The notes under the pieces were generated by a model. That model was not told where the DNA came from. It saw only the letters and a list, made by a program, of their open reading frames with translations, and did no database searches. The position numbers were made by a program, and so were the translations under genes. A DNA stretch of 64,000 nt, taken from Halomicrobium zhouii. Its GTDB lineage: Archaea; Halobacteriota; Halobacteria; Halobacteriales; Haloarculaceae. Numbering within the stretch: the first letter of the stretch is position 1; each line of letters opens with the position of its first letter. Shown here one piece after another: positions 10,390-15,052 of the stretch. The stretch covers positions 124,001 through 188,000 of the forward strand of contig NZ_FOZK01000003.1 in NCBI RefSeq assembly GCF_900114435.1. Direction: 5' to 3'.

Positions 10390-11061
10390 ATGGCTGACGA
10401 CCAGGCGACCCGCCGTGACGTCCGGGACACCTACGAGGAGATAGCTGACCACTTCTCGAAGACGCGCGAGTACGCCTGGCCGGAAGTCGAGTCCTTCGTC
10501 GAGAGTGCGGGCAACGTCGATCTCGCACTCGACGTCGGCTGTGGTAACGGGCGGCACGCCGAACTGCTCGCGACCGGTGCGGCCGAAGTCCTCGCGCTGG
10601 ATGCCAGCCGCGGCCTGCTATTGGAATCGAGGGAGCGTCTCGCCTCGCTCGGTGATCGGGTCGCACTCGTCCAGGGTGACGCCGCGAGCCTTCCCCTCGA
10701 CGACGACTCCGTCGGTCTCGCCGTCTACGTCGCCACGCTCCACCACCTCCCGAGGCGCGAGGACAGGCGCCGGAGCCTCGACGAACTGGCTCGCGTCCTC
10801 GCGCCGGACGGACGCGCACTCGTCAGTGCGTGGTCAACCGCTCACGACCGCTTCGACGCGTCGGCCGACGACGCCGTCGGGTTCGACACGACCATCGACT
10901 GGACGCGCCCCGGCGACGAAGTCGTCCCCCGGTTCTACCACATCTACGCGCCCGACGAGTTCCGCGAGGACGTCGCCGCCAGCGGTCTCGCCCTCGTGGA
11001 CTTCGAGATCTCCAGCGGCAACTGCTACGCCGTCGTGCGACCGGAAGGGAAACGCCCTTAA
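10390..11061 (+). CDS. Trm9/ALKBH8-like SAM-dependent methyltransferase
   Basis: The 223-residue class I methyltransferase has SAM-binding motif I ALDVGCGNGRHAEL (about residues 44-57), motif II EVLALDASRG, and LALVQGDAASLP-type motif III. Its N-terminus VRDTYEEIADHFSKTREYAWPEV and the ATLHHLP segment closely follow the Trm9 pattern; those enzymes methylate wobble-uridine side chains in tRNA with Trm112 as activator. Location 6 bases after tyrS and just upstream of a tRNA gene fits a tRNA-related role, but the exact substrate is inferred. The TTAAA in its last codons (11058-11062) may be the promoter for the downstream tRNA. Confidence 0.82.
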   Translation: MADDQATRRDVRDTYEEIADHFSKTREYAWPEVESFVESAGNVDLALDVGCGNGRHAELLATGAAEVLALDASRGLLLESRERLASLGDRVALVQGDAASLPLDDDSVGLAVYVATLHHLPRREDRRRSLDELARVLAPDGRALVSAWSTAHDRFDASADDAVGFDTTIDWTRPGDEVVPRFYHIYAPDEFREDVAASGLALVDFEISSGNCYAVVRPEGKRP

Positions 11062-11088
11062 ACTACGACGGGATACGCTGGAGTACAG

Positions 11089-11228
11089 GCTTCGCTCCAA
11101 CGAAGCGAGCACCGGTGGTGAGCGATTCCGGAGGAATCGCGAACCTCGGTGCGAATGAGCGGAGCGAATTCGCACCGGTGTTGAGACGGACGAAGTCCGT
11201 CGATGCACGGTGCACGAACGAAGTGAGT
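11089..11228 (+). repeat. Palindromic leader with partial tRNA-Gly 5' copies
   Basis: Five hairpins stand in a row: GCTTCG/CGAAGC (11089-11106), GCGATTCC-GGA-GGAATCGC (11122-11140), GTGCGAAT/ATTCGCAC (11149-11175), GACGGAC-GAA-GTCCGTC (11185-11201) and CGGTGCAC/GTGCACCG (11208-11234). The last one pairs the first six bases of the tRNA itself. The tRNA 5' sequence GCACCGGTG also occurs at 11109 and 11172. The only AT-rich promoter-like site is TTAAA at 11058-11062, about 170 bases before the tRNA, so this stretch seems to be transcribed as leader. Confidence 0.75.
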
Positions 11229-11299
11229 GCACCGGTGGTCTAATGGCATGACTTTGGCCTTCCAAGCCAACGATCCGGGTTCAACTCCCGGCCGGTGCA
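11229..11299 (+). tRNA. tRNA-Gly (anticodon TCC)
   Basis: A cloverleaf folds cleanly. The acceptor strand GCACCGG pairs with CCGGTGC (11292-11298) and A11299 is the discriminator. The anticodon arm is TTGGC-CTTCCAA-GCCAA with anticodon TCC, reading GGA/GGN glycine codons. The T arm is CCGGG-TTCAACT-CCCGG. CCA is not encoded. The usual tRNA promoter position about 27 bases upstream carries no AT-rich box; the leader is instead filled with palindromes. Confidence 0.95.
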
Positions 11300-11342
11300 T
11301 CCTGCGGAGACGACAACCGAGCAGCGACAGTAGTGTTCGCGG

Positions 11343-11765
11343 TCAGGGGTCGACGGTCGTCCAGACGTCGGAGGTGAGGACCGCGTCGGGGTTCTCGGGA
11401 ACGGAGAGTCGGAGCCCTTGGTCCGTCTCGATACTCACGACGTCGGGGGCGTTGATGCCCGGCGAATTGCGAGCGGGATGCGTGAGTGGTTCATCCCGGC
11501 TGGGGAATCCTTGAACGGCCGGGCAATCGACCGGTGAAACTGGTTCTGGGTTCTGTTCGCTTCCGGTTTCACCCCGTCCACAGGCTCCCTCGGTATCGCT
11601 GGCATCGCCATCCCTGTCGGCGTGGACCGTCACACTGGAGACTCGACCGCTGAGCCACGAGAAGACTCGCCCGACGTACTCGCGCAGGGACCAGGAGCGG
11701 TCCGACAGTGCCTCGTCCGGCGTTTCGTCACCATCGGGGGGCTTGTCAACCGGTGTGATACTCAT
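11343..11765 (-). CDS. Hypothetical protein
   Basis: This is a 140-residue, hydrophilic, Ser/Asp/Pro-rich protein without a recognisable family. The middle (about residues 50-95) looks disordered, while the C-terminal 35 residues (NAPDVVSIETDQGLRLSVPE) alternate like a beta-rich module. I chose the ATG at 11765 over a start at 11789. It sits between tRNA-Gly and the HD-domain gene on the opposite strand to the tRNA. Coding is plausible from composition but not certain. Confidence 0.5.
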   Translation of the reverse strand: MSITPVDKPPDGDETPDEALSDRSWSLREYVGRVFSWLSGRVSSVTVHADRDGDASDTEGACGRGETGSEQNPEPVSPVDCPAVQGFPSRDEPLTHPARNSPGINAPDVVSIETDQGLRLSVPENPDAVLTSDVWTTVDP

Positions 11766-11908
11766 ACGCAATATTCGCCGGGACGACACAAAGCCATGGG
11801 GTCAATAACTGACTCAGTCGTTCGTAAACCCGTCCAAAACCGCGAGTAAGCACTTGTTGCAACCGTACACGTCAGCCTAAAACCGATCTGATCCGCGACT
11901 GGCGTCAC

Positions 11909-12727
11909 TCAGAGTTCGATTCGTTCGACGAGCGGCTCGGTCTCCTCCCGGATGTTGAGTGCGACGATTCGGACGTGTTCTTCCAGTCCGGAGCCGTGGA
12001 GTTTCGCCTTCAACAGGTTGTCGACCTGGTAGACACCGGCGGCGTTGGTCATCTCGATCTCGACGAGGACTGCCTTGTCGTCGCCCGGTTCGAGGAAGAC
12101 GCGCTTGATAGCCTGGCTCGACACCGTATTGATGCCCCGGCCGCCCTGTTCGTAGGGAATACGGGACCGGCCCTGTTCCATGTCCAGTGCGTCAGCGACG
12201 CGGACGACGCCCGCTTCGAGCGTCAGCGGGTCCTCCGGAGTGTGGTGACAGAGGATGGCGTGGAGTATCTCGCCCTTGACGCGCACCTCGTCCGCGACGT
12301 CGTAGAACTCCGGGAGGACGCGGTCCAGCAGGTCCGCGGCCAGCGGGATGGAGTAGTAGGGGTGCTCGTCCCGGTGAACGACGTGACCGATGTCGTGCAG
12401 CGTCGCCGCGAGAGCGACGATAACCGGTTCGTCCGCTTCGTCGAGCCCCTGTTCGAGCGCGCCGTTGAACGCGACGTCGCCCCGCTTGAGCAGGTCGTAG
12501 AGGCAGAGGGCCCGATGCCGGACGATGCTGACGTGTTTGCTCCCGTGGTCGTTGTACCCCTTTCGCGCGACTGGATTGACGTTCTGGGCCTCGAGATAGG
12601 CCTGTATCTCCTCGTCAGTTTCGACGTATTCGAGCACGTCGTTGACGCGTTCGTCGGGGAACGCGTGGTCTGCCGACGGGTCGTAACGGTGCCCGTCGCT
12701 ATCGGCGTCTGTCTCGGTGTCACTCAT
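11909..12727 (-). CDS. HD-domain metal-dependent phosphohydrolase
   Basis: The 272-residue protein carries the HD superfamily metal site: an early His (DHGSKHVSIVRH, about 61-71), the HD pair in LHDIGHVVH (111-112), a further LCHHTPEDP, and VRVADALD with the last Asp. HD enzymes hydrolyse nucleotides, cyclic nucleotides or phosphoesters; the substrate is unknown. The C-terminal third (VEIEMTNAAGVYQVDNLLKAKL) is a separate small domain. The region upstream of its start is unusually long and structured (12728-12945), so it may have a long leader. Confidence 0.85.
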   Translation of the reverse strand: MSDTETDADSDGHRYDPSADHAFPDERVNDVLEYVETDEEIQAYLEAQNVNPVARKGYNDHGSKHVSIVRHRALCLYDLLKRGDVAFNGALEQGLDEADEPVIVALAATLHDIGHVVHRDEHPYYSIPLAADLLDRVLPEFYDVADEVRVKGEILHAILCHHTPEDPLTLEAGVVRVADALDMEQGRSRIPYEQGGRGINTVSSQAIKRVFLEPGDDKAVLVEIEMTNAAGVYQVDNLLKAKLHGSGLEEHVRIVALNIREETEPLVERIEL

Positions 12728-12847
12728 CGAACGGATATTCGAAAGCCACGGAGAAAAGAACTCGGCTCTTCGGGTCGGTCATCTTCAGCGGTGTGAGCGA
12801 ATGACGAGTTGCCGAGCAGATCTCCACACCTCACCTGTAGAGCAAAG

Positions 12848-12927
12848 GCCACCGGCGAGAGACCAAGGGGGGTGGGGGTCTTGGCTATCGAGGGCCGGGT
12901 GGCACAGGCTGGTATAATCGAACCAGC
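12848..12927. ncRNA. Candidate structured RNA element
   Basis: GCCACCGGC (12848-12856) pairs with GCCGGGTGGC (12894-12903) with one bulge. An inner stem CCAAG/CTTGG encloses a loop of G tracts (GGGGG-T-GGGGG). ACA follows immediately at 12904-12906 on the plus strand, and a second hairpin GCTGGT/ACCAGC follows. On the minus strand, an ATATTTAAAC box (about 12936-12945) would transcribe the complement toward the HD gene. Either orientation is possible. The stem followed by ACA recalls H/ACA guide RNAs, but I do not see a clear kink-turn. Confidence 0.35.
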
Positions 12928-13032
12928 AACTAGTTTAAATATTTCTCGTAGACATAATACTATCATCGATATCGACGCTCGAAATCGAACCGTGTGAACG
13001 GGTTTCAATCGAATCGGGCGAACGGGTTTCGA

Positions 13033-13052
13033 GGACGCCAGTGATGGCGTCC
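13033..13052. repeat. Perfect 8-bp hairpin with GTGA loop
   Basis: GGACGCCA-GTGA-TGGCGTCC forms a strong stem with a GNRA-type tetraloop about 95 bases downstream of the TTTAAATA box readable on the plus strand at 12934. It could end or stabilise a small transcript that begins near 12963 and contains the repeated GAACGGGTTTC. No T-run follows. Confidence 0.4.
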
Positions 13053-13360
13053 ACCGTCGAGTCGGCTCTGCACCGGCTGGTATGCACACGCCTGCGATTT
13101 TCGCCGAATTTCCTTCTAGCAATCGTCTCCTATACGTGCCAGTAACGCGTTATTCGAGTACCACATATGTCGAATCGCCGCGATGAACACCCGACTGGAC
13201 ACTCGCTCGCACGAAGTGATGCCATCGTCGAACTGACGTTCGTACCGCCTCAACCGACGGTAACGTGGCGAATACGGACCCAGCGCGCTCACACGACCGC
13301 CGACGCCCCGCTATCCCAACGCATTCGTGTAGTCAGGCTCCGCTGAGACGAGCAAAAAGC

Positions 13361-13369
13361 CTATAATAA
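13361..13369 (+). promoter_or_regulatory. TATA-like box of tatA
   Basis: CTATAATAA, preceded by an A-rich GCAAAAAG (a BRE-like context), lies 24-32 bases before the ATG at 13393. This fits a leaderless tatA transcript. Confidence 0.6.
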
Positions 13370-13392
13370 CGACAGCGTAAATTCCGCTTACG

Positions 13393-13665
13393 ATGGTAGC
13401 ACCCGTCCTTCAAATCGGACTGCCCGGAACCCAGGAGATGATGATCATTCTCCTGATCGCAGTCCTGCTGTTCGGCGCGAACAAAATCCCCAAGCTCGCC
13501 CGCTCGACCGGCGAGGCGATGGGTGAATTCCAGAAAGGCCGCGAAGAAGTGGAGCAGGAACTCCAGGAGATCAGGGAAGGCGAGACCAAATCCAGCACGT
13601 CTGCCGACACCACGGTCGAATCGGACGCCACCGAATCCACCACGACCGAGACGTCCACCGAGTAA
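13393..13665 (+). CDS. tatA: Twin-arginine translocase subunit TatA
   Basis: This is a 90-residue TatA/E-family protein: a short N-terminus, one membrane helix (MMIILLIAVLLF), the hinge FGANKIPKLARSTGEAMGEF with the conserved FG and P, an amphipathic helix, and an acidic Ser/Thr tail. TatA oligomers form the passage for folded proteins; haloarchaea export most secreted proteins this way. The nearby halocyanin (14156-15052) and sugar dehydrogenase (17695-19038) both have Tat lipoprotein signals and are likely clients. No tatC is adjacent. Confidence 0.95.
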   Translation: MVAPVLQIGLPGTQEMMIILLIAVLLFGANKIPKLARSTGEAMGEFQKGREEVEQELQEIREGETKSSTSADTTVESDATESTTTETSTE

Positions 13666-13712
13666 TTCGCGCGATTTCTGCTATTTTCACTCCCCGGAGT
13701 GGAACGGAAAGC

Positions 13713-13718
13713 GTTTTT
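13713..13718 (+). promoter_or_regulatory. Promoter box of tRNA-Arg
   Basis: TTTTTC inside CGGAAAGCGTTTTTCACT lies 25-30 bases before the tRNA 5' end at 13743, the normal spacing for a haloarchaeal tRNA promoter. This contrasts with tRNA-Gly, which lacks such a box. Confidence 0.5.
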
Positions 13719-13742
13719 CACTAACCTGCGTTGTACCGAACA

Positions 13743-13816
13743 GGGCGTGTGGCCTAGTGGATCAGGGTGAGGGGTTCCTAACCCCTAGATCGCGGGTTCG
13801 AATCCCGCCACGCCCG
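13743..13816 (+). tRNA. tRNA-Arg (anticodon CCT)
   Basis: The acceptor GGGCGTG pairs with CACGCCC (13809-13815), with G13816 as discriminator. The anticodon arm AGGGG-TTCCTAA-CCCCT gives anticodon CCT, which reads AGG arginine codons. The T arm is GCGGG-TTCGAAT-CCCGC. CCA is not encoded. Its 3' half recurs several times immediately downstream. Confidence 0.95.
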
Positions 13817-14150
13817 TGCAGGGAGGAGCGAAGCGACGACCGAACCGGCATGGCGGGATTCCTGAACCCTGCGAGTCACAGCCCGCGCAGGGCGAAGCCC
13901 GAGCAGGAATGTCTCGCTCCGGTTCGAATCCCGCCACGCCCGCTTCGTGGTTTCTCGCGTCCGCTCGAAACACACTCGCGGGCGTGGCGTAGCTCGCAAA
14001 CGCTACGCGTTTGCTCACTCCCGCCACGCCCGTGCAAGGAGGAGCGTAGCGGCGACTGAACCGGCATGGCGGGATGCGCAACCCTGGAAGTCGCAGTGCG
14101 CGTAGCGAACGAAGTGAGCGAGCGCAACCGTCTTGCTCCAGTTCGAATCC
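13817..14150 (+). repeat. Array of direct and inverted copies of the tRNA-Arg 3' end
   Basis: The tRNA 3' sequence recurs as direct copies at 13921-13942 (22 bases identical to 13795-13816), at 14019-14036 (18 bases identical to 13803-13820) and, degenerate, at about 14140-14150. Inverted copies occur at 13847-13860, 13979-13989 and 14063-14074. A block of about 130 bp (from 13803) recurs from 14019 with scattered differences. Short palindromes sit between, e.g. GCAAACGC-TAC-GCGTTTGC (13996-14014) and GGGC-GAA-GCCC (13890-13900). No ORF is supported; the array ends at the halocyanin stop codon. Confidence 0.85.
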
Positions 14151-14155
14151 GGTCT

Positions 14156-15052
14156 CTACTCGACGACGACGGCGCCTTTCATCCCGATGCCCTCGTGGGG
14201 TCTGCAAGCGTACCGATAGACGCCGGACTGCTCGAACGTGTGCTCGAAGTGGACGCCGGGCTCGGCGCTGATGTCGTCAGTCCGGATATCGGCGTCCTCG
14301 AACACGACGTCGTGACCGCCCCCCTCACCAGTCCACTCCCACGAGACCGTCGTCCCGGCTGCAATCTTCACCGCGGGCGGCGAGAAGGCGAAGGCGCCGC
14401 GGAGGGCTTCGGCGCCGACCATCACCGTCGTCGTCTCCACGTCAGTTTCGTCGGCGATGGTGCCGTCCCAGCTACTGCCGTTCGCGAGCCACTCGTTGAC
14501 GACGGGATAGTCGGTCGACGGCGGCGTGGCGACGACGACAGCGCCTTTCATTCCCTCGTCCTCGTGTGCTTCGCAAACGTAGCGGTACGTTCCGGTCTCG
14601 TCGAAGGTATGTTCGAAGATAGTACCGGTGTTACCCTCGAACGGTTCGCCGCTCTCGAAGGCGCCGTCGACGGAGACGACGTTGTGCTCGCCGCCGTGGC
14701 CAGTCCACTCCCAGTAGACTGTCGTGCCGGGCGTGACCTTGACAGCCGGCGGGCCGAACGCCAGATGGTTGCCATCGCCCGTGACGTCGTCGCCGACCCA
14801 GATGGAGACGGAATCGTCCAGACCGGCGCCCGGTATCGTTCCGTCGTAGCCGTTGGCGTCGGCGAGCCACGCGTCGAGGTCGGTTTCGGATTGCTCGCTC
14901 GCGTCCGGCGATGGCTCTGTAGTGGAGGTCTGAGTTGCGTCGTTCTCGGCCGTGTCCGGTGAGCGGGTCGTTCCGCTGCTTACGCATCCGGCAGTGGCCG
15001 TCAGTGCTGCTGCGGTACTGAGGAGGTGGCGTCTGGTAAGCGGGGAGCGCAT
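14156..15052 (-). CDS. Two-domain halocyanin (blue copper Tat lipoprotein)
   Basis: The 298-residue precursor begins with a twin-arginine signal (TRRHLLSTAAALTATAGC), giving a lipidated Cys23 on the outer membrane face. A Ser/Thr/Asp-rich linker follows, then two halocyanin domains. Each has a type I copper site: EHNVV...CEAHEDEGM in the first, HDVVF...CRPHEGIGM in the second (His, Cys, His, Met ligands). It is an electron carrier in the respiratory or photosensory membrane chain. It is a likely client of the nearby TatA. The promoter side contains two inverted repeats (15099-15149). Confidence 0.93.
   Translation of the reverse strand: MRSPLTRRHLLSTAAALTATAGCVSSGTTRSPDTAENDATQTSTTEPSPDASEQSETDLDAWLADANGYDGTIPGAGLDDSVSIWVGDDVTGDGNHLAFGPPAVKVTPGTTVYWEWTGHGGEHNVVSVDGAFESGEPFEGNTGTIFEHTFDETGTYRYVCEAHEDEGMKGAVVVATPPSTDYPVVNEWLANGSSWDGTIADETDVETTTVMVGAEALRGAFAFSPPAVKIAAGTTVSWEWTGEGGGHDVVFEDADIRTDDISAEPGVHFEHTFEQSGVYRYACRPHEGIGMKGAVVVE

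Follow-up and report, generated by a model that had tools for sequence, protein, structure and literature searches.

Short palindromic repeats are common, but the entry of such a unit into an essential RNA gene without killing that gene is seldom visible. REP sequences and other GTAG- or CGTC-tagged palindromes are short, dispersed hairpins whose foot carries a constant short tag, often accompanied by structured spacers, and REP-type palindromes also lie inside genes and inside other palindromic repeats (PMC3733652). Rickettsia palindromic elements (RPE), mentioned in PMC3733652, sit in frame within functional protein genes. The double-hairpin elements and repetitive hairpin-forming elements of mitochondria are thought to be mobile, enlarge spacers and in many cases stand beside tRNA genes (PMC2800124). 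The IS605-linked PATEs of Haloquadratum, themselves haloarchaeal, carry palindromes near their ends and make no target duplication (PMC3119063). Each of these traits recurs in the units described here.

The window, a 64,000-nt stretch of the Halomicrobium zhouii genome whose sequence is haloarchaeal, contains a tRNA-Gly(TCC) gene preceded by a long structured leader. The reading we favour, and consider fairly likely, is that this leader is built from two members of a REP-like family of double-hairpin insertions, found in haloarchaea and aimed at CGGTG, a sequence present in these tRNA 5′ ends.

Architecture of the tRNA-Gly(TCC) leader

The tRNA-Gly(TCC) gene occupies positions 11229-11299 of the plus strand (ARAGORN; Rfam RF00005, 67 bits). 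Upstream of it lie a tyrosyl-tRNA synthetase-like ORF and, preceding the leader, a methyltransferase-like ORF (10390-11061, stop codon 11059-11061), both named from their translations. The motif GAAACGCCCTTAA, at 11049-11061 on the plus strand, contains TTAA and is overlapped by the stop codon of the methyltransferase-like ORF. It recurs with at most three mismatches in 21 of 40 tRNA-Gly(TCC) loci (reversed motif, 0/40; reverse complement, 1/40), and since it persists in locus L086, outside any coding sequence, it probably acts as the promoter of tRNA-Gly(TCC). The TTAAA at 11058-11062, noted in the initial annotation as lying about 170 bases from the tRNA, likewise overlaps this stop codon.

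Two units, 63 and 57 nt long, make up the leader, each composed of an outer hairpin and a spacer hairpin. The outer hairpin has a 5′ arm identical to nt 1-9 of the tRNA and a 3′ arm complementary to nt 1-6. In unit 1 it spans 44 nt (11109-11152), with the 5′ arm GCACCGGTGGT, a copy of tRNA nt 1-11, and the 3′ arm ACCTCGGTGC enclosing the core; the full order is GCACCGGTGGT-GA-GCGATTCC-GGA-GGAATCGC-GA-ACCTCGGTGC. This hairpin scores 31.9 bits against R1, a covariance model of the rod common to the units. The spacer hairpin of unit 1, CGGTGCGAATGAGCGGAGCGAATTCGCACCG (11147-11177), ends in the next copy of the tRNA 5′ end. Unit 2 has a 42-nt outer hairpin at 11172-11213, which reads GCACCGGTG-TTGAGACGGACGAAGTCCGTCGATGC-ACGGTGC (5′ arm, core, 3′ arm) and matches R1 with 64.5 bits (E 4e-12), being itself among the 38 sequences from which the model was built. 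Its spacer hairpin, CGGTGCACGAACGAAGTGAGTGCACCG (11208-11234), has the first six bases of the tRNA as its right arm. Ahead of both units, the leader starts with a short hairpin legible in the sequence, GCTTCG-CTCCAA-CGAAGC (11089-11106), which is possibly the remnant of an older unit. All of these features lie on the plus strand.

The direct repeat GCACCGGTG, corresponding to tRNA nt 1-9, stands on the same strand at 11109-11117, 11172-11180 and 11229-11237, the last being the tRNA's own 5′ end with the presumed target CGGTG at 11233-11237. The initial annotation had noted these three copies, five palindromes, and the pairing of the first six tRNA bases by the last palindrome (CGGTGC/GCACCG); all are borne out. 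Three of the palindromes lie at 11089-11106, 11147-11177 and 11208-11234, and the other two are the inner stems of the outer hairpins at 11109-11152 and 11172-11213.

Leader and tRNA together fold more strongly than dinucleotide shuffles (z = -6.5; 0/200 as strong). The strict spacer-hairpin type occurs twice in the 64 kb, both times in the leader, and not once in five Markov shuffles. Among the 53 tRNA hits of the genome, only tRNA-Gly(TCC) at 11229 has its own 5′ end copied upstream, and it does so twice; as a wrong-pair control, the first 9 nt of another tRNA (≤1 mismatch, 250 nt upstream) were found in 93 of 2578 pairings in the same genome. Spurious ORFs run through tRNA and hairpin units of the window (13523-14059, and 11058-11300 on the minus strand), and automatic annotation may call them as proteins.

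A unit family in Halobacteriales

Matches in other genomes place the leader units in a family distributed across the order Halobacteriales. In a search of 392 genomes of this order, the 26-nt core of unit 2 was matched (≤1 mismatch) 27 times, in 25 genomes, and its reversed pattern not once in any row listed. Twenty-six of these matches lie 17-97 nt upstream, on the same strand, of tRNA-Gly(TCC), tRNA-Gly(CCC) or tRNA-Glu(TTC), and the remaining one (L032) lies before tRNA-Gly(CCC). Named records contain the core 15 times (Haloferax, Halorientalis, Halorhabdus, Halapricum, Halorussus and others), always before tRNA-Gly (15/15). The unit arms track the local tRNA (GCACCG/CGGTGC, GCTCCG/CGGAGC, GTGCCG/CGGCAC, GCGCCG/CGGCGC), such that GCACCG...CGGTGC is found in the window, GCTCCG...CGGAGC before tRNA-Glu, and GTGCCG...CGGCAC where tRNA-Gly starts with GTGCCG.

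Upstream copies are present in 30 of 60 tRNA-Gly loci picked solely by their tRNA match, usually about 60, 120 or 180 nt away, at a tolerance (≤1 mismatch in 9 nt) that misses diverged units, as the outlying loci L133 and L161 suggest. Controls in the same 60 loci are sparser and scattered (reversed 9-mer upstream in 9, 9-mer downstream in 7). Loci of relatives were selected through tRNA-Gly matches, with other tRNAs thinly sampled except in two genomes. Under strict filters that lose weak units, R1 matches 49 of 145 genomes in a class sample and 7 of 148 in a phylum sample; all seven belong to Halobacteriales, the share of the 148 that falls outside the order not being stated. R1 units (E ≤ 0.001) occur among the tRNA loci of Halomicrobium zhouii only before the tRNA-Gly(TCC) of the window, and R1 units among those of Haloferax massiliensis (G393) only before tRNA-Gly(TCC) and tRNA-Gly(CCC). 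Whole tandem tRNA copies were also considered as a cause: three further 5′-copy scores in G393 (Asp, Val-GAC, Arg-TCT) were taken as adjacent whole tRNA genes, second copies in the same loci, and were not counted as units. Members of one genus (G028, G051; L039, L040, L241, L278, L279, L280) have units matched by R1 or by the core before tRNA-Glu(TTC), tRNA-Glu(CTC), tRNA-Gly(TCC) and tRNA-Gly(CCC).

Extraction yielded 124 distinct units, with a 5′ arm identical to tRNA nt 1-9 in 104 and an assigned 3′ arm in 117; the span is fixed at 42 nt (59 units) or 44 nt (41 units) in 100 of the 117. They align without gaps into a single rod of six pairs, G7.T, a bulged T8, and 12 or 13 inner pairs with tandem G.A, closed mostly by a GNA loop. 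The scheme of the whole unit is GGTG - hairpin 1 - CTC - hairpin 2 (CGG N loop N′ CCG) - GTG, with a length of about 52-63 nt and a GGTG foot that is often CGGTGG. Covariation over 38 distinct 42-mers scores 0.306, compared with 0.140 in shuffles (0/500 as high) and 0.063-0.142 with slid partners. Departures in the outer hairpin, counted over all positions, are G.T rather than A.C in ratios of 93:4 (57 42-mers) and 59:6 (36 44-mers), and those in the arms in a ratio of 17:3 (29 distinct arm pairs). This excess fits pairing in the sense strand, and strand-biased C-to-T mutation of transcribed DNA could account for it as an alternative.

Units are also found away from tRNA genes. Of the 54 R1-match loci checked, 41 are followed within 130 nt by a tRNA (Gly 29, Thr-CGT 6, Glu 6) and the other 13 are not, a ratio that is no estimate, as 20 of the loci were hand-picked, partly for looking different. 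The 13 include an A-ATPase subunit I gene (L262; named from its translation) and an intergenic repeat of Halomicrobium zhouii. The intergenic repeat bears a unit in 10 of 30 loci: empty copies read GTGCCTGGTG-GATGAAAGGG (L324, L336), and in filled copies (L313, L316) these flanks enclose 57 nt. The repeat is itself palindromic and complex, and the empty copies could in part be deletions. In the linker of A-ATPase subunit I (AtpI), the aligned genes of one genus hold no unit in six genomes, one in two and two in two, all in frame (L292-L301). Filled and empty sites with matching flanks, as expected of a mobile element, thus occur in both the intergenic repeat and AtpI, the filled/empty and copy-number comparisons, in which neither a transposition event nor strain-level polymorphism was seen, being between species or repeat copies rather than strains. 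The intergenic palindromic repeat is abundant (103 matching pieces; for example L313-L342) and ends in TGAAAGGGCGAGG, some copies having a GGTG-tagged unit at the end.

A second, related family duplicates tRNA 3′ ends, by the counts below at roughly half of all tRNA genes. In the window, its units follow tRNA-Arg(CCT) (13743-13816) at 13817-14032 on the plus strand, where the tRNA 3′ end is repeated at 13925-13942 and 14015-14032. Such 3′ units combine an antisense T-arm, a conserved hairpin core and a repeat of the 3′ end of the tRNA that they follow. The last 18 nt of a tRNA (≤3 mismatches) recur within 400 nt downstream of it for 24 of the 53 tRNA hits in Halomicrobium zhouii (wrong-pair control, 16/2494). 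The same search scores 26 of 51 tRNAs in G393, some of the 26 representing neighbouring whole tRNA genes (wrong-pair control, 4/2258). The antisense T-arm lies between tRNA and 3′ copy in 26/34, 19/35 and 24/37 cases in three sets, and the reversed control in 1, 0 and 0.

Stepwise growth of the leader and competing origins

Before tRNA-Gly(CCC), the motif CGCTACGTTCAAGTG is present with at most three mismatches in 65 of 77 loci (reversed, 0/77; reverse complement, 1/77). Its median distance to the tRNA increases from 31 nt without copies (25 loci) to 92 nt with one (17 loci), 154 nt with two (15 loci) and 211 nt with three (8 loci; r = 0.94). Copies number 71 in the 6765 nt between motif and tRNA-Gly(CCC), compared with 8 in the 24435 nt upstream of the motif. 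For tRNA-Gly(TCC), the distance from GAAACGCCCTTAA grows by 59 nt per copy (r = 0.85) in the 21 of 40 loci with the motif, 19 loci without it being omitted. The gain per copy is therefore about 57-59 nt. Since the promoter-to-tRNA distance is quantised, the proposal of the initial annotation that the tRNA has been pushed from its promoter in steps holds; its account of each step as a simple duplication of the tRNA 5′ part does not, as the step is a structured insertion unit that also occurs outside tRNA genes, with empty sites. Nor is the arrangement unchanged across distant genera, an observation that would have spoken against displacement: copy number varies from 0 to 3 within one genus, Haloferax, where 3, 4, 3 and 4 of the 14 listed tRNA-Gly(CCC) loci have 0, 1, 2 and 3 copies.

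We propose that the units, which would be mobile, settle at CGGTG-like sites in a fixed orientation, presumably inserting behind the CGGTG. The 5′ ends of tRNA-Gly(TCC/CCC), tRNA-Thr(CGT) and, in variant form, tRNA-Glu have such a site at nt 2-10, close variants being CGATG and CGTTG. The right end of the unit would replace the tRNA 5′ end with an identical sequence, leaving the original upstream; the tRNA would therefore be intact and the leader one unit longer. Recombination between the 9-10-nt copies may delete units again.

Two observations bear on the origin of the arms: the second-hairpin arms in the intergenic repeat do not copy the flank, and the arms of tRNA-Thr units that lie outside the tRNA differ between copies. 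On these grounds, copying of the target flank at insertion was rejected; probably the unit brings its own arms and the tRNA constrains them. Purifying selection on the tRNA may keep them identical to it, a match that we attribute to such selection because the intergenic second-hairpin arms need not match their flank. The antisense arm would be explained by the symmetry of the palindrome.

Of the competing explanations, the one that survives best, although we regard it as unlikely, is a selected RNA device in which the outer hairpins mimic the acceptor stem of the next tRNA and tune 5′ maturation of tRNA-Gly, tRNA-Glu and tRNA-Thr. Two pairing registers would be available, one with the arms paired within each unit and another in which each 3′ arm pairs with the 5′ arm that follows it, and the tRNA 3′ end with the first 5′ arm. 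In the minimum-energy fold predicted for leader plus tRNA, the 5′ end of the tRNA is bound by the 3′ arm just before it, and its 3′ end by the first 5′ arm. Both arms match the tRNA almost perfectly, which resembles selected RNA structure, as do the spans fixed at 42/44 nt and the predominance of G.T over A.C in the sense strand. A published start-site map of Haloferax volcanii reports an exceptional 300-nt leader for tRNA-Gly(CCC), consistent with such a device, and lists tRNA-Gly(TCC) without a proximal start site (PMC4983044). By analogy with that report, compared by description rather than by sequence, the tRNA-Gly leader is probably transcribed, and it is very probably cut off by RNase P; the passages of PMC7714728 on splicing endonuclease (BHB) processing name no such substrate.

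Against a selected device, 30 of the 60 sampled loci lack copies, copy number varies from 0 to 3 inside one genus, and these hairpins are also present within a protein gene and intergenic repeats. In fold predictions for 54 loci, with energies that ignore molar salt and co-transcriptional folding, the mean probability of the native acceptor stem is 0.38 with real leaders and 0.40 with shuffled ones, compared with 0.98 for the tRNA alone; under the same energies, it is 0.26 with the 3′ arms broken (p = 0.05) and 0.55 with the 5′ arms broken. At the predicted equilibrium the arms compete with the native acceptor stem, and shuffled leaders do so to the same extent; the 3′ arms may shield the tRNA fold, an idea considered with these same values. 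An Rfam scan of 10900-14300 to E = 5 returned the two tRNAs and two sub-threshold matches overlapping them, and no regulatory leader or riboswitch family. A regulatory role of the leader in tRNA maturation is possible and is allowed by the strand-biased G.T pairing.

Quite improbable, in our judgement, is an origin purely by slippage or template switching, in which the tRNA 5′ end is duplicated and inverted copies arise at stable GNA hairpins without any mobile unit. A GNA loop with tandem G.A is a build known for very stable DNA mini-hairpins; most of the hairpins here have both, and their arms are near-perfect complements. Units that are near-identical to their neighbours in locus L136 show that tandem duplication also contributes. 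However, adjacent units mostly differ in core, the same 26-nt core recurs across tRNAs, families and genera, and the unlike flank and second-hairpin arms of the intergenic repeat run counter to local copying. Remnants of attachment sites of integrative elements, which commonly use tRNA genes in haloarchaea and leave, for example, partial tRNA copies beside Haloquadratum proviruses (PMC3119063), are a highly improbable source: the copied part is the 5′ end in tandem steps of 57-63 nt with inverted copies between them, the inserts leave no room for an integrase gene, no gene separates the copies as it would in a multi-kb element with an integrase and a partial tRNA copy at its far end, and the in-frame AtpI and intergenic units contradict it.

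An insertion family aimed at CGGTG remains our preferred reading, and it offers a simple account of the unexplained long tRNA-Gly(CCC) leader of Haloferax volcanii (PMC4983044). On this reading, sequence alone shows, in dozens of genera, where the units insert, how the tRNA end is restored and how the leader lengthens step by step. A broader extension, speculative and rather unlikely as a whole, would be a class of selfish archaeal units that use tRNA 5′ ends as a safe harbour, target the acceptor stem, rebuild it with their own second hairpin and ratchet the tRNA ever farther from the promoter; the stem mimics lined up in this way would have been drawn into the control of Gly, Glu and Thr tRNA maturation, and a sister family would do the same at 3′ ends genome-wide. 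The system is genetically tractable, and its arrays can be approached as either harmless passengers or RNA switches.

Relation to known palindromic elements

The units are undescribed in Rfam and in the literature searched, most subscription journals lying outside its scope. Like REP/REPIN sequences, they are short, imperfect, tagged hairpins in dispersed positions, with a GGTG-foot rod at several loci in the genome and in 49 of the 145 class-sample genomes. Their tag is GGTG in place of GTAG. In the Halomicrobium zhouii genome, copies were not found to flank a dedicated Y1 transposase gene, as they do in the IS200-like, RAYT-mobilised REP/REPIN system, and R1 detected no unit in the loci around its four Y1_Tnp matches.

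The in-frame insertions in a conserved protein gene, seen as 0, 1 or 2 frame-keeping units in the AtpI linker, resemble those of RPE. To our knowledge, RPE do not target tRNA 5′ ends. They also differ from the units in sequence, lineage and tag, which is CGTC in RPE (PMC3733652). Compared with the REP-type palindromes described in the same source, the units are tagged with GGTG, form head-to-tail arrays at tRNA 5′ ends and have arms matching the host tRNA. The mitochondrial double-hairpin elements are organellar and reside in other hosts, and the passages of PMC2800124 that describe them mention no match between an arm and a tRNA end. PATEs have their palindromes at both ends of a longer body (PMC3119063), whereas here the whole unit is only about 57 nt long.
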